Of a DNA stretch of 32,257 nt, positions 369 through 27,125 are shown piece after piece. A program made the position numbers and the translations under genes. The DNA lies in NCBI GenBank assembly GCA_016873095.1, contig VGYC01000077.1, forward strand, positions 1-32,257, given 5' to 3'. Under the pieces are notes generated by a model. That model saw nothing but the letters and a program-made list of their open reading frames with translations. It was not told the DNA's origin and did no database searches. Position 1 is the first letter of the stretch, and each line of letters begins with the position of its first letter. This DNA comes from Planctomycetota bacterium (GTDB taxonomy: Bacteria; Planctomycetota; Planctomycetia; Gemmatales; Gemmataceae).

Positions 369-1277
369 ATGCGGATTCGCATACTTGGCTCGGCGGCCGG
401 CGGCGGTGTTCCTCAGTGGAATTGCCGCTGTCGCAATTGTGAAGCCGCCCGCGCCGGCTCGCCTCACGTCCGGCCGCGGACACAATCGTCCATCGCCGTC
501 AGCGCCGATGGAAACAGCTGGTTCCTGCTCAATGTTTCCCCTGACATTCGCCAGCAAACCCTTGACTTTTCTCCATTGGGGCCGCCGCCGGGCAACGAGC
601 GCGGCCAGTCCATAGCCGGCTGCGTTCTGACCGACGCGGAACTGGATCATACCGCCGGGTTGCTGTTGTTGCGCGAAGGCCTTACGTTCTCCGTCTACTG
701 CACATCTCGGGTTCGACGCTGGCTGAATCGGTTTCTGCCGATCGAACCGTTACTGGCAAATTTCGCCAACCCCCATTGGTTTGAGATACCACTAACCGAG
801 TCGTCTCGCCTGGGCGCGGCAGGTCCTGGCCTGATTCTGCGGGCGTTTGAGGTGGAGCGTCATGTGCCGCGCTTCGTGGATGAGGAATCGAGCATGGCAA
901 GCGGGGCCGTCATTGGCGTGTCCATTCTCGATCCGGTGACTGGTGGCAAGCTCGTCTATGCGCCTTGCGTCGGCTCGCTCAGTGAACCGCTGCTGAGCAT
1001 GGCCATGGAGGCCGACGCGGTCTTTATCGACGGCACGTTCTGGTCGAATGACGAGCCATTGCAGTTTGGGCGGCGGACGGCGCTCCAGATGGGACATGTT
1101 CCTGTGAGTGGGCCGGGCAGCAGCCTGGATTGGATGGCAGGACTGCCGGCCCGGCAGCGCGTCTACGTCCATATCAATAACACCAATCCCATGCTGGACG
1201 AGCGTGGTCCCCAGCACAGTTTGGCCATGAGCAAAGGCGTGCGCGTAGGCCAGGACGGCGACATGTTCGAGCTGTAG
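369..1277 (+). CDS. pqqB: PqqB, PQQ biosynthesis metallo-beta-lactamase-fold protein
   Basis: This 302-residue protein has the usual PqqB length and the hallmark N-terminus MRIRILGSAAGGGVPQWNC, followed by the Cys-x-Cys-x-x-Cys cluster (CRCRNC). The central DAELDHTAGLLLLREG segment matches the family's metal-site region. PqqB has a metallo-beta-lactamase fold and is known to act as an oxygenase that hydroxylates the Glu-Tyr cross-linked intermediate derived from PqqA. It is the first gene of a pqqBCDE run; the gap to pqqC is 81 nt and holds a short direct repeat. The start is set by the family's conserved first residues, since no strong Shine-Dalgarno is visible. The protein is expected in the cytoplasm. 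Identification is secure from sequence and neighbours. Confidence 0.96.
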   Translation: MRIRILGSAAGGGVPQWNCRCRNCEAARAGSPHVRPRTQSSIAVSADGNSWFLLNVSPDIRQQTLDFSPLGPPPGNERGQSIAGCVLTDAELDHTAGLLLLREGLTFSVYCTSRVRRWLNRFLPIEPLLANFANPHWFEIPLTESSRLGAAGPGLILRAFEVERHVPRFVDEESSMASGAVIGVSILDPVTGGKLVYAPCVGSLSEPLLSMAMEADAVFIDGTFWSNDEPLQFGRRTALQMGHVPVSGPGSSLDWMAGLPARQRVYVHINNTNPMLDERGPQHSLAMSKGVRVGQDGDMFEL

Positions 1278-1293
1278 CTTGGGCTTCGATCCC

Positions 1294-1326
1294 GACTTGC
1301 TGAGTGTCAGACTTGCTGAGTTGTCA
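1294..1326 (+). repeat. 16/17-bp tandem direct repeat between pqqB and pqqC
   Basis: GACTTGCTGAGTGTCA (1294-1309) is followed immediately by GACTTGCTGAGTTGTCA (1310-1326), a duplication with one extra T. It lies in the pqqB-pqqC spacer, shortly before the GAGGAG ribosome binding site of pqqC (1347-1352). It looks like a small slippage duplication with no evident function. Confidence 0.7.
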
Positions 1327-1358
1327 GGAATCGAATCCTGGCCCACGAGGAGAAGATC

Positions 1359-2069
1359 ATGAATCCCTGGTCGCCGGCACAGTTCAGCGAGCAGCTTCGC
1401 CAGGTGGGTCGCGACCGCTATCACGACAAGCATCCGTTTCATCTCTTGATGAATGAGGGCAGGCTTGACCGGCAGCAAATCTGCCTGTGGGTCGCCAACC
1501 GTTTCTATTATCAGAAGAACATTCCCATCAAGGACGCGTTGCTGCTGTCACGATGTCCTCTGCGCGAGGTTCGCCGCCGCTGGGTGCAGCGCATACTCGA
1601 CCATGATGGGTTTGGAGATGATCCAGGCGGGATCGAGAAATGGCTGCGCCTGGGCGAGGCCGTGGGACTGAACCGCGACGAGCTTGAACGCGATCTGATA
1701 CTGCTGCCCGGCGTGCGCTTCGCGGTCGATGCTTACGTGAACTTCGTCGCGACCCGGCCATGGATCGAGGGAGTGGCCTCCTCGCTGACGGAGTTGTTCG
1801 CGCCCGCGCTGATGACGGAGCGGCTGGCCGCTTTCGAGCGGCATTACACCTGGATCGATCCCGCGGCGCTGGCGTATTTCCGTTCCCGGCCATCGCTGGC
1901 CAGGCGCGACAGCGACCACGGGCTGACGCTGGTCACGGAATACTGCCGCACGCGTGCAGAACAGGAGTGTGCCGTGGCGGCCCTGCGCTTCAAATGCGAT
2001 ATCTTGGCGGCGCAGCTCGATGCGCTGTATCATCATTGCATCGCCCGGCCTGACCAACTTCCACGATAA
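1359..2069 (+). CDS. pqqC: PqqC, pyrroloquinoline-quinone synthase
   Basis: PqqC catalyses the last step of PQQ formation, a cofactor-free oxidative ring closure that consumes O2. The 236-residue protein carries the family signatures YHDKHPFH near residue 22, NRFYYQKNIPIKDA, HDGFGDDPGG, RPWIEGVASSLTELFAP, ERHYTWI and the C-terminal RFKCDILAAQLDALY. These contain the conserved His, Arg, Tyr, Gln and Lys positions lining the active site of the Klebsiella enzyme. Its all-helical fold is related to TenA/heme-oxygenase proteins. A GAGGAG ribosome binding site (1347-1352) precedes the ATG. The stop overlaps the pqqD start by one base (TAATG), indicating translational coupling. Length is slightly under the usual 250 residues. 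Cytoplasmic; identification is secure. Confidence 0.96.
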   Translation: MNPWSPAQFSEQLRQVGRDRYHDKHPFHLLMNEGRLDRQQICLWVANRFYYQKNIPIKDALLLSRCPLREVRRRWVQRILDHDGFGDDPGGIEKWLRLGEAVGLNRDELERDLILLPGVRFAVDAYVNFVATRPWIEGVASSLTELFAPALMTERLAAFERHYTWIDPAALAYFRSRPSLARRDSDHGLTLVTEYCRTRAEQECAVAALRFKCDILAAQLDALYHHCIARPDQLPR

Positions 2070-2341
2070 TGTCAGGAAACCTGAGCCGCCCCCTGCTTGT
2101 CCGTCATGCACGCTTGCGCTGGGATGACCGCCGCGGCCAGCATCAGCTCGTTTTCCCCGAGGGGATGCTCGTGCTCAATGAGTCGGGTGCTGCCATCGTG
2201 CGGCTGTGCGACGGCCGGACCGTTGCAGAGCTGGTTGCCGCCTTGAGCCAGTCGTTTTCCGATGTGCCTCTTGCGGGGGACGTAACTGTCTTTCTGGATC
2301 GTCTGGCTCAGAAGGGATTGCTCCGTGACGCCAACACCTAG
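2069..2341 (+). CDS. pqqD: PqqD, PqqA-binding chaperone (RRE domain)
   Basis: This 90-residue protein matches PqqD throughout: VRHARLRWDDRRGQHQLVFPEGMLVLNESGAAIV, then LCDGRTVAELV and a C-terminal FLDRLAQKGLL. PqqD is the prototype RiPP recognition element; it binds the PqqA precursor peptide and presents it to PqqE. It starts inside the pqqC stop codon and its last 17 nt overlap pqqE, as expected for partners made in stoichiometric amounts. Because this domain exists to bind PqqA, a pqqA gene should exist somewhere in the genome although none is seen here. Confidence 0.95.
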   Translation: MSGNLSRPLLVRHARLRWDDRRGQHQLVFPEGMLVLNESGAAIVRLCDGRTVAELVAALSQSFSDVPLAGDVTVFLDRLAQKGLLRDANT

Positions 2342-3428
2342 GCCGTTGTGCTTGCTGGCGGAGTTGACCTATCGCTGTCCGCTCAAGTGTCCGTATTGCA
2401 GCAATCCACTCGAGCTGCGCCGTTATCGCGACGAGATGGTTACGACGACCTGGCAGCGCGTGCTGAGCGAAGCAGCCGCGTTGGGCGTGGTTCAAGTTCA
2501 CTTTTCCGGTGGCGAGCCGCTGCTCCGCCGCGACCTGCACGATTTGATCAGGAGTGCCCGGCGGCTTGACCTGTATACCCACTTGAGCACCGGCGCGACG
2601 CTGGCTGATGAAGCGACGTTCGAGCGCCTCCGTTCGGCGGGGCTCGATGCCGTGCAGATCAGCTTGCTGGATGTCCGTCCTTCGCAGAACGACTGGCTGG
2701 CCGGTGCGGCATCCTTTGACAAGAAGCGCCGAGCGGTCGAGGCGGCTCGACAATGTGAGTTTCCGGTCACGCTCAACGTGGTGCTGCATCGGCATAATCT
2801 CGACCGCATCCAGGAGATTGTCGAGCTGGCCGTGCAATGGCGCGTCAATCGACTGGAGCTGGCACACGTGCAATACGTCGGCTGGGCTTTTCGCAATCGT
2901 GCGGCACTACTGCCCACGAAGGAGCAAGTCGAACGCGCAGAGAGGGTTGTCGCCAGGGCGCGCGCTCTCTGCGAGGCACAGCTTGAGATCGTCCACGTTC
3001 TGCCCGACTACTTTCAGCAATACCCCAAGGCCTGCTTGCACGGATGGGGTCAGACGTTCTTGACGGTGGCGCCGGACGGTGCGGTCTTGCCCTGCCAGGC
3101 GGCCCGCGAGATTCCCGGGCTCACGTTTCCGAATGTGTGCGACGTTGCCCTGGCAGACATCTGGTTTGAGGCTCCGGTGTTTCAGCGTTTTCGCGGCGAA
3201 AGCTGGATGTCCGAGCCTTGCCGGAGCTGCGAGCGCCGTGATCTGGATTTCGGCGGCTGTCGCTGCCAGGCATTTCTGCTCACCGGCGACATCGCGGCCA
3301 CCGACCCCGTTTGTCATCTATCGCCTGTCCATGAGCTTGTCGAGCTGGCCTTGAGAGAGTCGACTGCTGGAAAGATAGCCTTCCGCACTATGCCTCCTGA
3401 CGGCAGCCGTCCGGCCATCCCGGATTGA
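2325..3428 (+). CDS. pqqE: PqqE, radical SAM PqqA Glu-Tyr crosslinking enzyme
   Basis: PqqE uses a radical SAM [4Fe-4S] cluster to form the C-C bond between a Glu and a Tyr of PqqA. The radical SAM motif is C18-x3-C22-x2-C25 within AELTYRCPLKCPYCSNP, followed by SGGEP at 61-65, which contacts SAM. The C-terminal SPASM region contains C237 (CLHGWGQTFLTVAPDG), C257, C299, C302, C312, C314 and C330, the ligand set for the auxiliary clusters. The 367-residue length is normal. The start overlaps pqqD by 17 nt and the N-terminus aligns with the family. No PqqF/PqqG-type protease follows; the next gene is convergent, so the operon ends here. Confidence 0.96.
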   Translation: MTPTPRPLCLLAELTYRCPLKCPYCSNPLELRRYRDEMVTTTWQRVLSEAAALGVVQVHFSGGEPLLRRDLHDLIRSARRLDLYTHLSTGATLADEATFERLRSAGLDAVQISLLDVRPSQNDWLAGAASFDKKRRAVEAARQCEFPVTLNVVLHRHNLDRIQEIVELAVQWRVNRLELAHVQYVGWAFRNRAALLPTKEQVERAERVVARARALCEAQLEIVHVLPDYFQQYPKACLHGWGQTFLTVAPDGAVLPCQAAREIPGLTFPNVCDVALADIWFEAPVFQRFRGESWMSEPCRSCERRDLDFGGCRCQAFLLTGDIAATDPVCHLSPVHELVELALRESTAGKIAFRTMPPDGSRPAIPD

Positions 3429-11110: not shown

Positions 11111-12403
11111 TTATTTCTGAAACCGGCTCACGACCAGTGAAATGTTCTGCCCCCCGAAACCGAAGCTGTTGCTGAGCGCGTGGTTGATGCGCTTGCTGCG
11201 GGCAGTATTGGGGATATAGTCGAGGTCGCACTCCGGATCGGGGAACTCGTAGTTGATCGTGGGCGGCAGCGTGTTCTCGCGGATGGCCATCACGCAGGTG
11301 ATCAACTCGACGGCGCCCGCGGCGGCGATCAAATGGCCCAGCATGCTCTTGCTGCTGCTGACAGGCGTCTGATAGGCCGCCTCGCCAAAGACGTTCTTGA
11401 TGGCGACGGTTTCGACCTTGTCGTTTACCTGAGTGCTGGTGCCGTGGGCGTTGATGTAACCGATGTCGGCGGGCTTGAGGCCGGCGTCAGCGATGGCGGC
11501 GCGGATGCAGGCAATGGCGCCTCGGCCGTCGGGATGGCTGTCCGTCACGCGGTAGGCATCTCCCGTCGAGCCATAGCCGGTCAACTCGGCGTAGATGGTG
11601 GCATGGCGACGCTGCGCGTGCTCCAGGTCTTCGAGGATGATCATGCCCGCGCCTTCGCCCAGCACGAAGCCGTCACGCTGAAAGTCGAACGGCCGCGACG
11701 CCTTGGTCGGATCCTGGTTGCGCGTCGACAGCGCGGTGAGCAGGTTGAAACCGGTCACTCCAAGGGGATGGATCATGCTGTGCGAGCCGCCGGTGAGCAT
11801 GAGGTCGGTGTCCCCGGACCGGATGATCTCGGCGGCTTCACCGATGGCCTGGCTGCTGGCGGCGCAAGCGGTGAGGCAATTGTAATTTGGTCCTTCGAGA
11901 CCGAAGTAGCCGGCCACGTGTCCAGTGGTCGTATGCAGCTCCTGCTCGTATTCACGGCCGGCGTGAAACTTTTTGAGGCCGCCTTCGCTGAAGGCGACCG
12001 CATTCATCTGATTCGTCTCTTTGAGATAGGTGTGAGCCACCAGCGGAATGAGATGATCGAAGTCCTGGATGCCCTCGCCGGAGCCGAGGTAGACGCCAAT
12101 GCGAGCCGGATCGATCTTGTTATGATCGAGCAGGTCGGCATCGCTGAGCGCCTGGTGAGCGGCGGCAAGGGCGAAGCGGGTATTGACGCCGGAATTCTCC
12201 CAGCGTTGCGGGTCGCGCACATAGCCGCCAAGATCGAAGTTCTTCACCTGGGCGGCAAAATTCGTCGGAAAGGCGCGGGCATTGAACAGCGACACCGGCC
12301 CAACGCCTGTCCGGCCTTCGAGCTGGGCGTGATACAGCTCGGCCGGAGAATGTCCCAGGGGCGTGATCGCTCCCATGCCCGTGATGACGACGCGTCGACG
12401 CAT
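11111..12403 (-). CDS. fabF: Beta-ketoacyl-ACP synthase (FabF/KAS II type, intact active site)
   Basis: This 430-residue ketosynthase has the full Cys-His-His triad: C180 in NCLTACAASS, H320 in NAHGTST and H357 in KSMLGHLIAAAG, with K352 conserved. The N-terminal RRVVITGMGAITPLG and the C-terminal SNSFGFGGQN are typical of FabF. It condenses malonyl-ACP with an acyl-ACP primer. It is the last gene of a minus-strand operon that includes a second, catalytically altered ketosynthase 112 nt upstream, an ACP, a ketoreductase and two dehydratases. The pairing with the altered copy suggests a heterodimer as in type II polyketide or aryl-polyene systems (inference); an ordinary fatty-acid role is also possible. 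The 10811-11110 stretch downstream holds no gene I can support. Confidence 0.93.
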   Translation of the reverse strand: MRRRVVITGMGAITPLGHSPAELYHAQLEGRTGVGPVSLFNARAFPTNFAAQVKNFDLGGYVRDPQRWENSGVNTRFALAAAHQALSDADLLDHNKIDPARIGVYLGSGEGIQDFDHLIPLVAHTYLKETNQMNAVAFSEGGLKKFHAGREYEQELHTTTGHVAGYFGLEGPNYNCLTACAASSQAIGEAAEIIRSGDTDLMLTGGSHSMIHPLGVTGFNLLTALSTRNQDPTKASRPFDFQRDGFVLGEGAGMIILEDLEHAQRRHATIYAELTGYGSTGDAYRVTDSHPDGRGAIACIRAAIADAGLKPADIGYINAHGTSTQVNDKVETVAIKNVFGEAAYQTPVSSSKSMLGHLIAAAGAVELITCVMAIRENTLPPTINYEFPDPECDLDYIPNTARSKRINHALSNSFGFGGQNISLVVSRFQK

Positions 12404-12429
12404 ATCTTTGGCCCTCGGCTATCGGCAGT

Positions 12430-12476
12430 CAGCTAAATCAGCAGACAGCTAAATCAGCAGACAGCTAAATCAGCGG
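12430..12476 (-). repeat. Three tandem 16-bp repeats between the two ketosynthase genes
   Basis: The unit CAGCTAAATCAGCAGA occurs at 12430-12445 and 12446-12461, with a third copy (last bases altered) at 12462-12476. It occupies the spacer between the altered ketosynthase stop and the intact ketosynthase start, 27 nt before the latter. It could tune translation or spacing, or simply be a slippage product. Confidence 0.85.
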
Positions 12477-12515
12477 TTCACGATCAAATGTCGGTCACCG
12501 GCTTCTTGCCACAAG

Positions 12516-13796
12516 CTACTTCCATCGCTTGCACACCGCGACGGCGCATTGGCCCATCTCGGTGAAGGCGATCTTGATGAAATAGTCCTTGGTCATGGGC
12601 TGTGTAGAACGGATGACGTTGACCGGGCAAGCGGGGTCGGGCTCGGTATAGTTCAAGGTCGCGGGGACCAGTCCGTGTTCCATGCCAAGCAGGCTGGCGG
12701 CCAGTTCGGTGGGGCTGCCGCCGGCACTCAAATTGCCGAAGTAACTCTTGGGCGCGAAGACCGGCACCGGCTGGGGCAGGGAACCGAAAACCTCGAGCAG
12801 GGCGCGCGACTCCCAGGCATCGGACTTGATTGAGCTCAGACCGTGAGCGTTGACGTGATCGACATCGCCCGGACCGATGCCTGCATGCTTGAGGGCGGTG
12901 CGGATGGCACGGGCTAATCCGCGGCCAGAGGTGTCGCGGTCAAAGGCGGCGCCGAAGCCGACAATCTCGGCGTAGATACGCGCGCCGCGTGCCAGGGCGT
13001 GGTTGGCCTCTTCCAGGACCAGAACGCCCGACCCCTCGCTGATGACCCATCCGTCGCGGCCGCGATCGAAGGGGCGGACCGCCGACTCCGGCGACTCATT
13101 GCGTTGCGACAAATGTCCGAACAGGCACTGACGAACCATGCTGAGCGGATTGACGCGGCCGTCGGCCCCGCCAACGAGGAAGAAGTCGGCCTGGTCGCGC
13201 TTGATGATGCGGTACGATTCGCCCAGCGCCAGCAAACCGGCCACGTCCCCCTCGGTGATCGTGTTGTTGGGGCCTTGGGCATTGTGGAAGATGGACACGT
13301 GGCAGGCGAGCATGTTGGGCAGATACTTGAGCATCCACAGCGGCGGAATGCAGCCGAGGCCCTGCTTGCCCCATTGTTCAAGATCGACGCTGCCGGGCTG
13401 GCAGTTGACGCTGGCTTGCGAGGCCGCCCCCAGTTCCTCGAGTTCGGTGGGCAGCAAACCTGCGCCGAACTCGACGCCAAAGCGCGTGGGGTCGAGCTTG
13501 TCCTTGTCGACCTTCGAGTCGTCGATGGCCAGCTGCGCGGCGGCGACGGCGAGTTGAATGGCCCGAGCCATCAGGCGCAGGCTTTTACGATCCTTCTTCT
13601 CGATATAGTTCTTGGCGTCGAAGTCGCGGATTTCGCCCGCGATGCGGCTGGGGAGGCCGCTGGCATCGAATGTCTCAACAGCTCGAATGCCGCTCTGGCC
13701 GCGACTGAGCGAATCCCAGAAGCTGGCCGCGTCCAGCCCGATCGGGTTGACGATCCCGATACCGGTGATGACGACGCGGCGAGAAGACGAAGACAT
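12516..13796 (-). CDS. Ketosynthase-like protein lacking the catalytic Cys (chain-length-factor-like)
   Basis: The 426-residue protein is a full-length KAS II fold homologue (RRVVITGIGIVNPIG ... NAHGLSS), but its active site is changed. At the nucleophile position the neighbour's TAC180AASS aligns with EGD184VAGL here, so Cys is Asp. The second catalytic His (KSMLGH in the neighbour) is Asn355 (KSYFGN). H318 in NAHG and K350 remain. It therefore cannot form the acyl-thioester, as in KS-beta/chain-length factors of type II polyketide synthases, which act as the non-catalytic half of a heterodimer. That role is inferred from the adjacent intact KS. The start at 13796 is preceded by AGGTG; an upstream in-frame ATG at 13916 would add 40 non-homologous residues. 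Confidence 0.9.
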   Translation of the reverse strand: MSSSSRRVVITGIGIVNPIGLDAASFWDSLSRGQSGIRAVETFDASGLPSRIAGEIRDFDAKNYIEKKDRKSLRLMARAIQLAVAAAQLAIDDSKVDKDKLDPTRFGVEFGAGLLPTELEELGAASQASVNCQPGSVDLEQWGKQGLGCIPPLWMLKYLPNMLACHVSIFHNAQGPNNTITEGDVAGLLALGESYRIIKRDQADFFLVGGADGRVNPLSMVRQCLFGHLSQRNESPESAVRPFDRGRDGWVISEGSGVLVLEEANHALARGARIYAEIVGFGAAFDRDTSGRGLARAIRTALKHAGIGPGDVDHVNAHGLSSIKSDAWESRALLEVFGSLPQPVPVFAPKSYFGNLSAGGSPTELAASLLGMEHGLVPATLNYTEPDPACPVNVIRSTQPMTKDYFIKIAFTEMGQCAVAVCKRWK

Positions 13797-13957
13797 TTCG
13801 CACCTGCAAGTATGTTCCGAAACGCTGCTCGGCTGGTTCCGATGAACCGAGGCATTCCGGGACTCGGGCGTGTCCCCGAAACCCTCAGGCGGCCTGAATG
13901 CCCGTTTCCTGGACAATTTTAGGCGGGTTTCGAGGAACGGCCCCCATTTTCAGTTTA

Positions 13958-14473
13958 TCAGGAGCCGTCCTTGTGGTCGGTCGTGGCCTTGACCAGACCC
14001 AGCAAGTGCTTCAATTCTCCGGTGAAGACAAAGTTATGGTCCCCGAAGATCTGCTGGGAGCGAGCCTGATCGAGATGGGCGAAGAAGATCTCGGCATCGG
14101 CGACGCGTTCCAATTCTGTCGAACTGACGCCTGGAGGCGGGGCCGCAAAAATTCGGCCCTGCACCGAGGCGCCTTCCGGTCTCAAAAAAACCAAGTCGGT
14201 TTCATAGATCAGCTGACGGCCCGCCAGCACTTCACCGTGAAATCGCGCTTGCAGGATCTTGGCCAGGATCACCTTCTCGCGGTAGTCGTTGGCCTCGCCC
14301 ACCAGGATGCCCCCGGTCTGCGCGAGCCCCTCGAGCATCAGGGCCGCCGGCATGACTGGATAGCCTGGGAAGTGATCGGCAAAGTAGTCCTCCGCCAGGC
14401 TCAGGTTCTTGACGGCGCGGGCGAACTGGCCGCTCTTGAACTCCACAAAACGGTCAATCCAGATCCAGCGCAT
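13958..14473 (-). CDS. FabA/FabZ-like hotdog dehydratase (copy 1)
   Basis: This 171-residue hotdog-fold protein has the dehydratase active-site segment DHFPGYPVMPAALMLEGLAQ, with catalytic H34 and E48. It should remove water from 3-hydroxyacyl-ACP. Residues after about 150 form a short extension. It is paralogous to the first gene of the operon (15814-16326), sharing the DHFP-x-x-PVMP and LMLE elements. The two may form a heteromeric dehydratase, or act at different chain lengths (inference). It lies 38 nt after the ACP gene, with 161 nt before the altered ketosynthase. Confidence 0.88.
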   Translation of the reverse strand: MRWIWIDRFVEFKSGQFARAVKNLSLAEDYFADHFPGYPVMPAALMLEGLAQTGGILVGEANDYREKVILAKILQARFHGEVLAGRQLIYETDLVFLRPEGASVQGRIFAAPPPGVSSTELERVADAEIFFAHLDQARSQQIFGDHNFVFTGELKHLLGLVKATTDHKDGS

Positions 14474-14511
14474 GGTCCTGCGTTCCCGCGATCCCGCGTT
14501 ACTGCCGACAC

Positions 14512-14928
14512 CTACTTGCCGTTCACGGCCCCGTTCGTGTGTCCGTTCAACTTGTCCTGGATGTAGCGCGTGATCATCTCGACCGTGAACAGGTCGCTGA
14601 TGGCGCTCAGCTCAGGGTTCTGCTCGAACTTCGCAAGGTTTGCGAAGGGCATGCGGGCACGCAGCTCGGCGATGCCCTTGTCGGTGACGCGGCCGTTCTG
14701 CACGAACTCCGGGTCGCCCTGAAAGATCGATTCCGGGAACAGCTCGCCCCGCGGAATCTTGATGCCGAATTCGCGCTCCAGGCGGAAGACAATGTCCAGG
14801 AAATCGATGGACTCAGCTCCCAGGTCGCCCTGCAGCGTCGAAGTGGGCTTGATGTCATCCTCATCCACGTTCAGCGCCTCGACCAGGGTCGCAGACACTT
14901 TCGTGTAGATCTCGTCCTGACTCGGCAT
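14512..14928 (-). CDS. Acyl carrier protein, long form
   Basis: From the ATG at 14928 the protein has 138 residues. The phosphopantetheine site is S40 in DLGAESIDFLDIVFRLE, on the normal ACP helix II, and the first 60 residues match ACPs well. It is much longer than the usual ~78 residues: about 50 extra residues (roughly 64-112, containing RVTDKGIAELRARMPF) lie before a final ACP-like helix (TVEMITRYIQDKL). The start is supported by GGAGG 5 nt upstream; an ATG 48 nt earlier is less likely. It sits between the ketoreductase and a dehydratase and is presumably the carrier for all enzymes of this operon. Confidence 0.9.
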   Translation of the reverse strand: MPSQDEIYTKVSATLVEALNVDEDDIKPTSTLQGDLGAESIDFLDIVFRLEREFGIKIPRGELFPESIFQGDPEFVQNGRVTDKGIAELRARMPFANLAKFEQNPELSAISDLFTVEMITRYIQDKLNGHTNGAVNGK

Positions 14929-15035
14929 GGAAACCTCCAAGTTAAACCTCGTTGGCAGACAGCTTCGACGGCTCACTGGACCGGCGAAGATTTTTCACTC
15001 TCGTTCGCGGAACCTGCCCGGGAACGAATTCTTGT

Positions 15036-15794
15036 TCACACCGGAGCGGCGCCCAGCCCCAGTCCCCCATCGACCACCATCACCTGGCCGGTAATGTAGG
15101 AGCTGTCCGGGCCGGCAAGAAACACCACCATGCGGGCGATGTCTTCGGGCTGGCCCAGCCGCCGCATCGGGATCATTTTCTTGATGAGGTCGCCCGCCTT
15201 GTTGCGGACGGCCTCGCTCATGTCGGTCTCGATGAAGCCGGGAGCGACGGCGTTGACCGTCACGCCTCGGCTGGCCAGTTCGACCGCCAGCGCCCGTGTC
15301 AGGGAGTTGATGGCCCCCTTGCTGGCCGCGTAATTGCATTGCCCCGGGTTGGCATGGTCGGCAGCGATGCTCGAGATATTGATGATCCGACCGCGACGCT
15401 GCTTCATGAACGTATAGGCCAGGGCCCGGCAAAAGTTATAAGTTCCCCCCAGATTCGTTTGCAGCACACTGTGCCACGCTTCCGGCTCCAGCCGCACGAA
15501 GAGGTCGTCGCGGATGATGCCGGCGTTGTTGACCAGGATGTCGATGCGGCCAAACTCCTTTTCCGCCCGCTCGGCGCACTTCTGTGCCTCTTCGAGGCTG
15601 GCGACGTCGGCCTGCAAGGCCAGCGCCACGCCCCCCAACTCGGCGACCTCGGCGGCTAGGCTTTCGGCCGCTTGCTGACTGCCCTTGTAGACAAAAGCCA
15701 CCTTGGCGCCTTCGGCGGCCAGGGCCTTGACGATGGCCCGGCCGATTCCGCGGCTGCCGCCGGTCACCAACGCTCCCTGATCCTTCAACTTCAT
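15036..15794 (-). CDS. fabG: 3-oxoacyl-ACP reductase, FabG type
   Basis: This 252-residue short-chain dehydrogenase has the NADP-binding TGGSRGIG motif (11-18), NNAG (89-92), N114, and the catalytic S142, Y155 and K159 (YAASK). The C-terminus (PGFIETDM ... VDGGLGLG) is also typical. It reduces 3-oxoacyl-ACP to 3-hydroxyacyl-ACP in the cytoplasm. It starts 19 nt after the stop of the upstream dehydratase gene and is followed by the ACP gene, as in fatty-acid and type II polyketide clusters. All catalytic residues are present. Confidence 0.94.
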
Positions 15795-15813
15795 GTTGCC
15801 TCTTCTCGCACTC

Positions 15814-16326
15814 TCAGTTCGCCGCCCTGGCGCCGACTGCTGTACTTACCAGGGGCATACTGTTCGTCAGCACGGCATGCAAGCCGCGCAGGTGTTCCAC
15901 GATGCGTTTGTCAGCGGCCTGCATGGCAGGCACGCGATCGCGAAGGTTGTAGCGCGCCAGCGTTAGCTTGGCCGACACCGTCGAGCTGCCATCAACTTCG
16001 CCCTTGCCCTTGAATGTGGCCAGCTCGTCGGTGCACTCCACCAGCTCAGCGCTGGCCACCAGGTTTTTTCCAGGAATCATGAAGTTTCCATACTTCACGT
16101 TTTTCACTTCCCGCAGGACGATGACACTGTGTCGAAAATCCTCGGTGATGCGCAACAACCAGGCGCCGGCTTCCACCAGGGTCTCCAGCATCAAGACCCC
16201 TGGCATGACAGGGAAGGTGGGAAAGTGGTCGGCCAGGTACTCCTCGCCAAGGGTCAGGTTCTTGACGATGCGAATGCGCTTCGCGGGCTCGAAATCCAGG
16301 ATTCGATCCACGAGGTTGAATCGCAT
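15814..16326 (-). CDS. FabA/FabZ-like hotdog dehydratase (copy 2)
   Basis: First gene of the operon, 170 residues. The active-site segment [18 protein letters not shown] has H34 and E48 at the same positions as in the paralogue at 13958-14473. It probably dehydrates 3-hydroxyacyl-ACP, either alone or with the paralogue. The start codon has no clear Shine-Dalgarno; it is set by the conserved MRFNLVDRI opening, which aligns with MRWIWIDRF in the paralogue. A promoter and a small palindrome lie in the upstream region. Confidence 0.87.
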
Positions 16327-16725: not shown

Positions 16726-19185
16726 TCACCATCGTTTCTGCCCGGGTGGGGCCGGGTCATCCAGCACACTCAGCCCGAACGGGGCAAAAAGGAACACGCC
16801 GCTGTAGTAGCCGGTCTGCCCCAGAGTTTCGTTATCAGCCAGTGTCTTGACGCCGGCTGTGATGGCGGTGCGCAGAGCTTCGCGCATGATGCGCCGATGT
16901 TCCTCGTTGCCGGTAACGGCCGCCTCGTAGGCGAACGCCTCGGAGGCGTGAAACGTGGCCGCACAGAATCCCGGCGGTGGAGAGTTCCGGAAGTGCCGGC
17001 AAGAAGTGAGATAGAACGACTTGTGCCTCTCGCTCCAACAGTCACGGATCATCTGATCGATCCCGGCCGACAGGGCTTTCAGGACTTCGGGATCGTCGGT
17101 GATGCGGTGGTAGCGTGCCAGGGCCGTCAGGGTCAAGCCGAGCATGTACATGTTATTGCCTCGGCAACGCCCCGACTCTGCCGAGACGGCACAGTGCCCA
17201 TGCGCGAGCACGACAACCCAGCCTTTCTTCGGATCCAGGTTTTTCTTGAGCACCAGCCATTGCTTGTGCGCGGCGGTCAGGTACTTCTTGTCGCCTGTGG
17301 CTTCATGGGCGTTGAGCAGCAGGTGCAGCGGCCAACCGATGTTGCGGATGTGGTCGGTGTATCGTGTCGGGCACAGTTCTGCCATGGCGTCGCTGGCCAA
17401 AACTCCAACCTCGCGGGCCCGCCGGTCGCCTGTGAGGAGGTAGTAGTCGAAGACACCGCCGATCCACACGTGGCCGAAGTCCCAGAGTCCGACCTGATAG
17501 GCGCCCTTCATCTTCAGCGGGGCCTCGTTCTCGTACTTGCCGCCGACGAAGCGAGCATAGTATCCGCCGGTATGGCCCACGCAGTGAGGCCAGATCTGAC
17601 CGGGTCGCATGTTCGCGGAACCAGGGTACGCCCGAATGTGCGGATTCGAAACGTGCAGAACATCAACGTCCAGAAAGTGTCGGGCCGCCTGCTCGGCCCG
17701 GTCGAAGAAGCGCCGATTTCCGGTGCGCAGGTATTGTTGAAACCAGATGCGGGATGTGTCGTATTCCAGGTTGCCCCACGAGTCCCAGTTGGTGTTGTAC
17801 CAGTCACCGTAATTCAGCATGCCATACTCGCGAAGGCGGTCGCGTTCAGCACGGTGACGGTCCAAGAAATCGGTCACGAGAGTATCGTAGGCGCGATACT
17901 TGATCGGATCGCTGGGTGGCAGCGGGCCGACCGCTCGACTGACGCTCACCTGAAGCGGTTCGCAAGAAGCGAGCAGCGGCTTTTCAGCGGCTTGAAAAAA
18001 GTCGGCAAGCCGGACTGCATCCGGTTTGCCTGCGAAAAAGGTAGCCCAGAGTTCCTGAGTACGCGCCACCCCGCACTTGAACGAGTAGACTCCCTGGCGC
18101 AGGTAGTACGATAGTTTGCACTCCTCAGCAAGCGATTTGCCGTCGTACAACCCGTTGGGACAGATGCCGATGCGAAGCTGACCGGCTGCGGCCTCGATGT
18201 CCTTTGGCCAATTCTGCCACCATTCGCGCACACCGACCGCCATGCCAAGGTGGTCGCTGCCGACGGCGGCCCAGCCGGCGCCGCGCCGACCTGCCGGCTT
18301 ACCGTCCAGGTCATAGCGGCCATCGTCCACTTGAAAGAGTAGGCCGGCGGCGCGTTCCTTGCCATCGAGCATGATGCGACTACCATCTTTTCGAGCATGA
18401 GCAAACACCAGGTCGAGCGCATCAATCTTGGCCATCATGTCGTCCTGATGATCGTTGATAAACGTGTGATGGAATCGCAAGAATGGCTGGCCGCGAAAAG
18501 CATGGATACGGACGATGTAACGGAACAGCGCACCTCTTGCTGAACGGTGAACACCTTCGATGCGAACGCTGGCGCGCAATGGTCCGGAATCCTCAACAGT
18601 CAACTTTGCGGGCGCCCGATCTGCGCGGAAAACGGTCCCATCGGGCGAAGTAAGGATGATGCCGGCGCCTTTGGAACCCGTGACCCGTTCTGCGGCGGAG
18701 AACCGGCCGTCCTGGTTGGCGTCGAGCCACACTTCATCCAGCAAGCGAAACGCCGTCGAGGAGAGCCGCAGTCGAAGCGGACCGGTGTTGATGGCGATGG
18801 CATGTCCTTCGTTGCTCACGGTGACTGGCTTTGAGACCGCATGACGCTTCACGCCAGGACCGTAGCGCAGGGAGAAGGTTCTTTTCTCAAACGCCTTGAG
18901 GTCGGTCTGAAAATCCAGTAGCAGCCAGCGCACCGAACCATCCGGCCAGCGCGAAAGCACCTCGGTTTGGAGCGGAGTTTCACGATCGTCCGCGCTGAAG
19001 AGCACTGCCGCCTGGGGATCGCGGAGCAGGCCCCTAGCAATGGGGACGCCGGAACTGACCGGCCAGCCGATCCGGTGCACTCCCGCTGGTTCGGTAACCG
19101 TAACAGTCAGCTCAGCAGCGAGCCCCGCGCAAGGAAATACGGCAAGAACCGTGTAGCTCATCAAGCAGGCTGCCATTCGGTTCAT
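16726..19185 (-). CDS. Secreted PcRGLX/YetA-like polysaccharide-lyase-type protein
   Basis: The 819-residue protein starts with a signal peptide (MNRMAACLMSYTVLAVFPCAGLAA). It then follows the PcRGLX/YetA layout: an N-terminal RIFT-barrel-like region (VHRIGWPVSSGVPIARGLL; RWPDGSVRWLLLDFQ), a beta-rich middle region, and a C-terminal alpha/alpha-barrel-like region with YGDWYNTNWDSWGNLEYD, WPHCVGHTGGYYARF and IGWPLHLLLNAHEATGDKKYL. The fungal prototype is a rhamnose-glucuronate exolyase acting on side chains of gum arabic-like polysaccharides; the substrate here is unknown. Two starts are possible (19194 and 19185). 19185 is preferred because GGGG lies about 9 nt before it. It is divergent from the thioredoxin-like gene at 19313 and separated from the FAS operon by 399 nt. 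Confidence 0.82.
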   Translation of the reverse strand: MNRMAACLMSYTVLAVFPCAGLAAELTVTVTEPAGVHRIGWPVSSGVPIARGLLRDPQAAVLFSADDRETPLQTEVLSRWPDGSVRWLLLDFQTDLKAFEKRTFSLRYGPGVKRHAVSKPVTVSNEGHAIAINTGPLRLRLSSTAFRLLDEVWLDANQDGRFSAAERVTGSKGAGIILTSPDGTVFRADRAPAKLTVEDSGPLRASVRIEGVHRSARGALFRYIVRIHAFRGQPFLRFHHTFINDHQDDMMAKIDALDLVFAHARKDGSRIMLDGKERAAGLLFQVDDGRYDLDGKPAGRRGAGWAAVGSDHLGMAVGVREWWQNWPKDIEAAAGQLRIGICPNGLYDGKSLAEECKLSYYLRQGVYSFKCGVARTQELWATFFAGKPDAVRLADFFQAAEKPLLASCEPLQVSVSRAVGPLPPSDPIKYRAYDTLVTDFLDRHRAERDRLREYGMLNYGDWYNTNWDSWGNLEYDTSRIWFQQYLRTGNRRFFDRAEQAARHFLDVDVLHVSNPHIRAYPGSANMRPGQIWPHCVGHTGGYYARFVGGKYENEAPLKMKGAYQVGLWDFGHVWIGGVFDYYLLTGDRRAREVGVLASDAMAELCPTRYTDHIRNIGWPLHLLLNAHEATGDKKYLTAAHKQWLVLKKNLDPKKGWVVVLAHGHCAVSAESGRCRGNNMYMLGLTLTALARYHRITDDPEVLKALSAGIDQMIRDCWSERHKSFYLTSCRHFRNSPPPGFCAATFHASEAFAYEAAVTGNEEHRRIMREALRTAITAGVKTLADNETLGQTGYYSGVFLFAPFGLSVLDDPAPPGQKRW

Positions 19186-19312
19186 GATTTTCATCCCCGT
19201 GAAGGCGGGCACGGCCCCCCGGACCGTGGTACGACACTTTTTTGCCAACGATCTTTGGCCCTTCGGTGTTTGCCAATGTAGGATAGGTTGGATCTCAGGG
19301 CGAGGGTCATTC

Positions 19313-20566
19313 ATGTATACACCAGTCTTCGGGCGACCGGCCACTGGCTTGCTCGTATCGGCGAGTTCTGCGAGCGATCTGTCAACGCCGCCGGTTTCGC
19401 CGTCATCGGTGCTGCCGCTACCCGCAGCGGTGCCCGCGACGCCGCCGTGTCGGGCCCGATGCGCTAGCTCGTTCCTGTCCACGTACTGGTCGGTGTTTGC
19501 CGGCTGCGGGCTTGCTCTGCTTGTCGTCGTCACGGGACTGGCGCTGGCGATCAACTACCTGGAGCGCGCACCGGGCGAAGAAACCGTCGCGGCTTCCGCA
19601 CCGATCATCGCGCCGTCCCCTTCTGCCGCGGCGCCAGTGCCTCTGCAGGCTCCACGCAATGTGCCGGTGCCGGCAATCGTCAAGATCGTCGATTTGAAAG
19701 TATCGCCGCCCCCGGCTCCAGCGTCCGCGGCTCCAACCTCGCCTGTCAACAAGGGCGATGAACCGCCAGCCCCCAAGCTGCCGGATTTTCTACTCGACGA
19801 AGCTGGCATCGGTATCGATGTCGCCAAGGACGGACCGAAGGTGGGCAAGGCCTTGCCGGAGGAGCCGCCAGGGGCGCTTCCCAGATGCGAAACCTACGGC
19901 ACGGCGATCAACTTCGTGCGCAGCCCGTTGCAGGCCGCCAAGTTTGCCCAGACCGAGGACAAACTGGTGTTCACGCTGCATGTGTCCGGCAACTTCGAGG
20001 ATCCCGGCTTCACATGAAACAACGCCCAGGCCCTCCGTGAGAAGGCCCTTAACAATGAAGATGTCGGTAGCTACATGAACGAGTTCTTTGTCAATTCCTT
20101 TCAGAAAGTCGCCACCTTTCGCAAGAATGGCGATAACAAGCAAGGCGGCAACGTGGCCAGCTATTTCTGCACGCCCAAGGGGCAGGTGGTTCATGCCATC
20201 GCCGGCCCCGTCGATGCTGCCACTTTTCTGCGTGAGGCCCGCTGGACCGTCGAGCTTTGGAAGCTGGCCCAGCTGGAGGGCAACGACAAGGCCACCAGAC
20301 TTGCTGCCTTCATGCGCAAGGCTCATCTTGACCGCCTTCGCCAGGACTTTCCCGGAACCCATGCCCAGAGGACGCCCGGCTTCGCCGTCCAGGCCCTCAT
20401 CGCTCCCGGCCGCGGCAACCAGCTGATCCAGAACCTCGACAACCAGGCCAAGGTGCACCTGCTACTGGGCAACTATCCCCTGCCCAAGGTGCAACAGATC
20501 TACTCGCTCGTCTTCGAGAGAATCCTGAACGAACGACTTTCCACCGTGCCGGTGGTGCAGAAGTAA
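19313..20566 (+). CDS. Membrane-anchored thioredoxin-fold protein with in-frame TGA (candidate selenoprotein)
   Basis: The frame from ATG 19313 (GAGGG upstream) runs 417 codons to the TAA at 20566, with one internal TGA at codon 235 (20015-20017). Residues 58-82 form a single membrane helix (FAGCGLALLVVVTGLALAI) and 90-160 a Pro/Ala-rich linker. From about 215 there is a thioredoxin-like domain: strand LVFTLHVSGNFEDPGFT, the TGA, helix NNAQALREKAL, then VASYFCTPKGQVVHAIAGP and AATFLREA. The TGA is where such folds place a redox Cys. A hairpin resembling a bacterial SECIS starts 11 nt after it. An independent downstream gene from ATG 20075 is unlikely: it lacks a ribosome binding site and the 19 codons between TGA and ATG encode continuous domain sequence. 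A recent nonsense mutation or sequencing error remains possible. The active domain would face the periplasm. Confidence 0.7.
20029..20047 (+). promoter_or_regulatory. Candidate bacterial SECIS hairpin
   Basis: GGCCCTC (20029-20035) pairs with GAG (20039-20041) and GGCC (20044-20047), leaving an AA bulge on the 3' side and the apical loop CGT. The stem is 7 bp. The loop G (20037) lies 20 nt after the TGA at 20015-20017. Bacterial SECIS elements are short stem-loops within the coding sequence, with a G in the apical loop about 16-37 nt after the UGA, so position and form fit. The sequence also has to code protein, and GC-rich DNA forms hairpins easily, so this is supportive rather than decisive. 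Confidence 0.5.
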
Positions 20567-26600: not shown

Positions 26601-27125
26601 CTATGGGATGCTCTTCAGAAACTTGCGGGCCTGGTCGGTATCCCAGTCCATGGCTCCCGGGAACTCGAAAACGACCTCACCCTTGCGATTGACGACGTAT
26701 GACACCGGGATGAATTCGGGGTTCAGGATTGGCGGCACGCCTTCGGTGGCGATGTGGACGGGGAGCGTCCAGCCCTTCTTCTTGACAAACTCCTTGACCT
26801 TGGCCGCTTTCTCGGTCGTGACGATGAGAAAGGCAATATCGGAGTCCTTGACGGAATCGTGCAGCGCTTGAATGCCGGGCATTTCCCCGACGCAGGGCGG
26901 GCACCAGGTGGCCCAGCGATTGATGAACACGACCTTGCCGCGCAACTGGTCCATGTCGACTTCCTTGCCGTCGAGCGATGTCACGGTCCAGCTTCCCGGC
27001 AACTTGCCTAGGACCTTGAGAGATTTGACGGGCGGAAACGGACCATCGCTCCGCTCGGGTGAGCAGGCCGAAACCAGGGCAGCATTCGCTGCTACCAGAA
27101 ACAAGAAGGCGGCACGCCGACACAT
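26601..27125 (-). CDS. TlpA/ResA-like thioredoxin lipoprotein
   Basis: This 174-residue protein has a lipoprotein signal ending LVSAC21, so it should be lipid-anchored on the outer face of the cytoplasmic membrane. The thioredoxin-fold domain contains WC75PPC78 in INRWATWCPPCVGEMP and a cis-Pro region (EFIPVSYVVNRKG). Such proteins reduce disulfides or apocytochrome c thiols, or act in the oxidative stress response. The c-type heme protein downstream on the same strand may be a client, but that is conjecture. The gene follows the DJ-1/PfpI gene by 28 nt, so the two are probably co-transcribed. GGGAG lies 8 nt before the ATG. Confidence 0.9.
   Translation of the reverse strand: MCRRAAFLFLVAANAALVSACSPERSDGPFPPVKSLKVLGKLPGSWTVTSLDGKEVDMDQLRGKVVFINRWATWCPPCVGEMPGIQALHDSVKDSDIAFLIVTTEKAAKVKEFVKKKGWTLPVHIATEGVPPILNPEFIPVSYVVNRKGEVVFEFPGAMDWDTDQARKFLKSIP

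Follow-up and report, generated by a model that had tools for sequence, protein, structure and literature searches.

The window analysed here, a stretch of 32,257 nucleotides from a planctomycete draft genome, carries on its forward strand a gene whose reading frame is interrupted by a TGA codon. The frame opens at ATG 19313, runs through 234 sense codons to the TGA at 20015-20017 (codon 235) and proceeds through a further 182 sense codons to TAA 20564-20566; the TGA is the sole stop before that TAA, so that the first-pass annotation, which had described a frame halted by the TGA and then open to 20566, was correct on this point. A possible ribosome-binding site precedes ATG 19313, and an in-frame ATG at 19184 might serve as the start instead. 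For ATG 20075, by contrast with the first start, no clear ribosome-binding site is visible by eye, as had been claimed. The features of the locus are the following.

19313..20566, forward strand: candidate selenoprotein gene, 417 residues with selenocysteine at position 235; homologues read through the same TGA
19302..19306, forward strand: GAGGG, possible ribosome-binding site for ATG 19313 (by eye)
19484..19564, forward strand: predicted membrane helix, residues 58-84 (model blocks with pLDDT 47-82; hydrophobic by eye)
19565..19879, forward strand: Pro/Ala-rich linker, residues 85-189 (from the sequence; low pLDDT)
19889..20278, forward strand: predicted thioredoxin-like domain, residues 193-322, DsbD-gamma/DsbH-like (pLDDT 87-98; structural match to 3f9u_A)
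20015..20017, forward strand: TGA, predicted selenocysteine 235, motif T-U-N-N-A (109 TGA, 11 TGC and 1 GCC among 121 distinct members)
20029..20047, forward strand: predicted SECIS hairpin, loop at 20036-20040 (CGUGA) with G20-U21 at 20037-20038 (homologue comparison and published constraints)
20279..20563, forward strand: C-terminal tail, residues 323-417 (mostly helical in the model; conserved block near VHLLL..Y..VFE.ILNE..S..PV in the alignment)

A promoter scan found no sigma-70-like site, and terminator-like sites occur at the chance level (2 versus 2.1). One recurrent neighbour frame is shared by the window, a short-chain-dehydrogenase-like frame (by eye) present at 4 loci including this one; the other recurrent neighbour frames either recur within small clusters of relatives or overlap with the gene itself. 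Farther away, frames resembling pqqB, pqqC, pqqD and pqqE lie at 369-3428, and the reverse strand encodes, at 11111-16326, frames resembling two ketosynthases, an acyl carrier protein, a ketoreductase and dehydratases and, at 26601-27125, a TlpA-like lipoprotein whose WCPPC site is normal, an ordinary Cys thioredoxin of the same window (all by eye).

The TGA at codon 235 recurs throughout the homologues of the gene. In a first search of 59 genomes, the window's own included, matches were obtained in 22; leaving out one genome with a weak match covering residues 27-78 only (G047), the family is present in 21 genomes; 29 listed matches extend across residue 235, 27 of them with one in-frame TGA (hand count). 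The two without it, L026 (Ala, with a Cys one residue earlier) and L028 (Ser), are paralogues without the Sec codon whose genomes also hold a TGA copy. With two peptide patterns derived from alignment A1, a scan in which each bacterial and archaeal species was represented by one genome recovered 62 loci, all in planctomycete records and all with TGA at the site; the phyla outside Planctomycetota were covered by pattern scans only, and the window protein (P0001), used alone as the query in the same one-genome-per-species scan, retrieved no relative. When 120 rows, among which the same gene may occur twice, were placed on profile A1, the codon was TGA in 118, GCC in one (L026) and TCG in one (L028).

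A wider search covered 392 genomes, at least 173 of which have a match at 1e-6. Among the matches listed, 92 reach E <= 1.1e-30; of these, 81 contain one in-frame TGA, whose position at the Sec column was checked for the loci that were fetched, and 11 contain none (hand count); all 11 stop-free matches have TGC at the Sec column. On the broader profile A6, this column is TGA in 109, TGC (Cys) in 11 and GCC (Ala) in one of 121 distinct planctomycete members, which differ in sequence around the site, have E <= 1e-25 on A6 and form a non-random sample, the best matches having been fetched and members without the stop having been fetched deliberately. Weaker members with Ser or Ala in the Sec column are L028 and L260-L263. 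The check on homologues suggested in the first-pass annotation thus returns TGA or, in a distant branch, Cys, with a few Ala or Ser exceptions (L026, L028 and L260-L263). Many of the genomes compared are draft metagenome assemblies, and all of the evidence is sequence; since the same TGA recurs in other assemblies, a local sequencing error is ruled out as its source, and a sense codon misread as TGA, the objection foreseen at the outset, is disfavoured.

Two more TGA members are encoded in the window's genome, L259 (G000:C34:43813-44187) and L025 (G000:C70:20958-21470), and in both the sequence after the TGA can form a hairpin (by eye for L259). A different case is L184 (G284:C15), a more ordinary thioredoxin-like frame in which TGA occupies the position of the first Cys (U-G-A-C); it is possibly a separate UxxC selenoprotein.

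A quick tree was built for 80 of the 121 members after masking the Sec column, with a midpoint root only; in it, the 11 Cys members make up one side of one branch (support 100) inside the Sec groups, and 11 of the 12 placed members without TGA belong to that single Cys branch. If the midpoint root holds, Sec was replaced by Cys. Such a replacement is described in the text of PMC13188914 as commoner in eukaryotes than in bacteria.

Downstream of the TGA, the first-pass annotation had drawn a hairpin with a three-base loop, CGT, and an AA bulge. The hairpin is present and its four lower pairs are the same, but the loop is the five-base CGUGA, and the stem (GGCC/GGCC) begins 12 nt past the TGA, at 20029. 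The register kept by the homologues comprises the pairs 12-30, 13-29, 14-28, 15-27, (16.26), 17-25 and 18-24 around the loop C19-G20-U21-G22-A23. Published constraints on bacterial SECIS elements are a loop of 3-9 nt, an upper stem of 4-16 bp, a G in the first two loop bases, a spacing of 16-37 nt and MFE <= -7.5 (PMC13188914, Fig. 2 legend). The window hairpin falls within these bounds, with a 5-nt loop, CGUGA, in which G is second and is followed by U, a spacing of 18 nt and a stem of 4+2 bp round a C.A mismatch. Its MFE of -7.5 over 50 nt lies exactly at the published limit, a value reached by 54 of 55 family genes. The loop G-U is located 20 and 21 nt past the UGA, which we take to be the spacing of G23/U24 in the SECIS of E. 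coli fdhF; the stem sequence and bulge of the latter are, presumably, unlike those of the window hairpin.

The constraint on this segment is apparent at synonymous sites. In 55 non-redundant genes, synonymous conservation is in excess at codons +5 to +9 (z 4.0 to 15.3), where the members with the commonest residue use GCG in 45 of 53 cases, CTC in 39 of 40, CGT in 47 of 55, GTG in all 41 and AAC in all 34. The mean stem length of the TGA members is 5.95 versus 4.70 in synonymous reshuffles (maximum 4.91; none of 100 as high), and the mean MFE of bases 10-40 is -8.79 in the 109 TGA members versus -4.32 in the 11 Cys members. An excess of synonymous conservation is also seen upstream of the UGA, at codon -6 (19997-19999), where GAA is used by 41 of 51 commonest-residue members (z 14.7), and at codon -1 (20012-20014), with ACC in 47 of 55 (z 10.0); the window itself has GAG and ACA at these codons.

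Across an alignment of 50 genes, the hairpin pairs in 83.5% of the cells versus 34-42% when the structure is slid. Pair 15-27 is a standard pair in all 50 sequences, occurring as GC, AU, CG, GU and UA (C-G in the window, G-C in 44 sequences), and changes on both sides are found for pairs 12-30 (n=8), 15-27 (n=5), 16-26 (n=10) and 9-33 (n=1). The cells paired and the covariation score exceed all 500 shuffles and the cells changed on both sides exceed all but 3, whereas the number of pairs with two-sided changes (102 of 500 shuffles as high) and the pair types (69 of 500) show no excess; with the structure slid by +1, the covariation score is nearly equal (0.133 versus 0.144). Pairing is missing in 8 to 25 of the 50 sequences at the lower stem pairs and at pairs 12-30 and 16-26, and 38 of these genes have the hairpin in their minimum-energy fold, the other 12 folding otherwise. 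Five of the 55 genes (L142, L143, L146, L149 and L150), with a different downstream sequence and fold, are outside this alignment. Taken as a whole, the 51-nt stretch does not fold with lower energy than synonymous shuffles (mean z +0.24, 54 genes); it is the local hairpin and the choice of codons, rather than the stability of the whole stretch, that carry the SECIS signal. Among the distant homologues, 18 genes share a six-pair hairpin with the loop CGUGNN or, once, CGGGAC, in which 108 of 108 cells are paired; its covariation score is reached by 2 of 500 shuffles and its pair types by all 500, and 4 of the 18 genes (L157, L159, L161 and L175) have another minimum fold. The predicted hairpins of the remaining 7 of 25 distant rows, which are outside that alignment, have a four- or five-base loop.

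An AlphaFold2 model built from 46 rows shows a single helix (58-84), then a linker modelled with low confidence and, at about residues 191-345, a domain modelled with high confidence. This is in keeping with the membrane anchor and Pro/Ala linker originally proposed, and the thioredoxin-like domain delimited in the model (193-322) spans residue 235, as anticipated from the sequence on both sides of the TGA. The best structural match is 3f9u_A (VIA Z 12.8, rmsd 1.9 over 105 residues, model range 197-320); the structural matches listed are DsbD-gamma/DsbH/AGR-type thioredoxin folds, and Foldseek returned one match at E <= 0.001, 7tkv_B. In profile alignments, the Sec column falls on the first CxxC cysteine of 2kuc, 3ira and 2lst, an alignment that is weak with A1 (E 0.59) and better with A6 (3ira, E 5.4e-06). 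A CxxC or UxxC active site is absent: the motif is U-N-N-A, set within DPGFTUNNA in the window, and Ala stands where the second Cys would be in all 46 rows of alignment A2 (the window and 45 of the 62 pattern-scan loci). Residues T234, Sec235, N236, N237, A238, A240, R242 and C286 are invariant in these rows, and C286 could be a resolving residue. The alignment also places GGNVA at the position of the cis-Pro that we take to be usual in thioredoxins.

As to the machinery of selenocysteine insertion, for which the first-pass annotation had asked for selA, selB, selC and selD, the window's genome encodes selA (571 bits), selB (381 bits) and selD (287 bits), all above cut-off, and retains the tRNA-Sec gene (selC) as two pieces only, no intact copy being found in this 95.5%-complete draft assembly. 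The selA and selB genes are neighbours on contig C81, and selD lies on C117 inside a longer frame (G000:C117, L049:1-2532), of which it constitutes the C-terminal part, the N-terminal part resembling an FAD/NAD-dependent oxidoreductase (by eye). The 5′ piece of the tRNA-Sec gene, 40 nt at C6:70507-70546 (L192:1501-1540), is identical to the tRNA-Sec of a relative used as the query and stops where the anticodon loop ends (by eye), in the interior of an 85-kb contig; the 3′ piece is 18 nt long (C242:9228-9245, L193). The upstream flank of the former is weakly like that of one relative, and the downstream flank of the latter is similar to those of relatives. The two pieces may reflect an integrated element or an assembly gap. 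Genes for tRNA-Sec in separate pieces occur in some archaea; for the window's genome we dropped this possibility, given that the relative-like 3′ flank fits an integrated element or an assembly gap equally. The single pattern match for a middle piece, on C358, is inside a protein frame, with no tRNA there, and was taken as chance. Of 17 tRNA-Sec family hits in this genome, all but the nine weakest were checked and proved to be other tRNAs (Leu, Ser and Gly by ARAGORN); the L035 hit is a tRNA with anticodon GCU (by eye).

Of the 59 genomes searched, the window's own among them, 43 have a tRNA-Sec match, namely, 17 of the 21 with the family (those without are G000, which is the window's genome, G002, G016 and G030) versus 26 of the 38 without it; the anticodon is TCA in all 8 of the relatives' tRNA-Sec loci checked. 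Genome G016 (95% complete), with two TGA members, yielded neither a tRNA-Sec nor a selA match. A selA match was found in 26 of 31 genomes with distant TGA members, with none in the other 5, and in 8 of 11 genomes with the Cys form, with none in 3.

From the conserved UGA, its exchange with Cys, the constrained hairpin, the presence of selA, selB and selD, and the predicted fold, we infer that the in-frame TGA at codon 235 very probably encodes selenocysteine, the central claim of the first-pass annotation, which the homologues, the SECIS hairpin and the sel genes support. The UGA would be decoded by SelB and tRNA-Sec, directed by the hairpin within the coding sequence that starts 12 nt downstream. 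Alternatively, the TGA could be a true stop, so that the gene is broken or yields a short product, with a second product perhaps starting at ATG 20075. The draft genome with no intact tRNA-Sec and the loss of the site in the paralogues L026 (Ala) and L028 (Ser) would suit this explanation; it is nevertheless very improbable, given that one conserved domain spans the TGA, that the TGA is common to 109 of the 121 distinct members, that T-U-N-N-A is invariant in the 46 A2 rows and that codon choice past the TGA is constrained. It is scarcely credible that a changed code or a suppressor inserts another residue, Trp or Cys, without selenium: of the 21 other frames inspected in the window, 9 end in TGA, the non-TGA members among the 121 have Cys (11) or Ala (1) and never Trp, and the conserved hairpin occurs together with selA, selB and selD.

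The selenocysteine-containing product would be anchored by one N-terminal membrane helix, probably N-in, and its flexible Pro/Ala linker would carry the thioredoxin-like domain, most likely outside the cytoplasmic membrane. With Sec apparently replacing the first Cys of CxxC and Ala the second (TUNNA), a single-selenol enzyme is probable rather than a two-Cys thioredoxin; it might be a peroxidase, or a reductase that finishes its cycle with another thiol, the type of reaction being a guess from the motif and the fold. Topology, redox activity and reaction are all inferred, and we consider it likely that the protein is a redox enzyme acting outside the membrane. A selenocysteine-containing protein with a chaperone-like, metal-binding or selenium-binding role in place of redox catalysis is the less favoured, rather unlikely reading, to which the loss of the second Cys of CxxC, the replacement of cis-Pro by GGNVA and the presence among the fold matches of AGR2/AGR3, with their single active-site Cys, lend some weight. 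However, Sec occupies the nucleophilic Cys position of a thioredoxin-like fold, and section 7 of PMC13188914 holds that most uncharacterised selenoproteins serve redox functions.

Searches of Pfam and NCBIfam with the window protein and 23 family members gave no credible match (best E 0.007, unrelated names), and the window domain has no Pfam match at E <= 1. The 2026 inventory in PMC13188914 comprises 119 prokaryotic selenoprotein families and subfamilies; the rows of its Table 1, some of which give no motif, contain no TUNNA-like motif in a comparison made by motif rather than accession, and the phylum name Planctomycetota is absent from the main text of that article. More generally, the family was not met in Pfam, NCBIfam or the literature searched, including PMC13188914, PMC12013277, PMC9312934 and PMC1794560, with the list of selenoprotein candidates from the one planctomycete study retrieved (PMC4807772, table S9) lying outside the comparison; within that scope, the layout appears unlike those of described selenoproteins, as first noticed.

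The nearest known relative is the VPGUxxT family thioredoxin-like (seleno)protein (NF041382/NF041383), with the link running through distant members. Both families have a thioredoxin-like domain with Sec and occur in Planctomycetota, and the A6 profile (here, 19 distant rows and the window) aligns with 10 VPGUxxT rows with probability 97 and E 1.2e-10, Sec column on Sec column. The VPGUxxT proteins, however, have the motif EVPGUxxC and a second part, which in several members contains a TGA of its own (GMTUFWVGE), whereas the window protein has TUNNA, no VPGU motif and no second part. Furthermore, the profile of the window's subfamily, A1, matches VPGUxxT weakly (probability 5.8, E 0.0065), the window Sec landing on the second Cys of UxxC; neither P0001 nor the 23 A1 members match NF041383 at E <= 1, and the best of 10 distant homologues, L163, scores 20.3 bits against a curated cut-off of 275 bits. 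Proteins of the DsbD-gamma/DsbH/Thioredoxin_7-like type (3f9u, 2lst, 3ira, 2kuc and 1vrs) share the predicted fold (VIA Z 12.8 to 9.2) but differ in their termini and in that the window motif is without the second Cys. Known thioredoxin-like selenoproteins with UxxC, UxxT or TxxU, such as thioredoxin, GPX-like proteins and peroxiredoxin in PMC13188914 Table 1, share Sec in a thioredoxin-like fold and an in-frame SECIS-type hairpin.

On these sequence comparisons, we would call the window family a putative selenoprotein family with a thioredoxin-like fold and a one-selenol centre, absent from the catalogues compared. For the proposal in its entirety, we see roughly even chances: an undescribed family across Planctomycetota that normally uses Sec and whose one Cys branch derives from Sec ancestors, and in which a single-selenol TUNNA centre, without a second motif Cys or the usual cis-Pro, would perform, outside the cytoplasmic membrane, a redox step not known for thioredoxin-like proteins. 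Because gene callers that stop at each TGA would cut these proteins short, annotations probably carry the family in truncated form or overlook it. The family would extend the list of 119 prokaryotic selenoprotein families and subfamilies (PMC13188914) and would make testable what Sec does in a thioredoxin fold without an adjoining second Cys.
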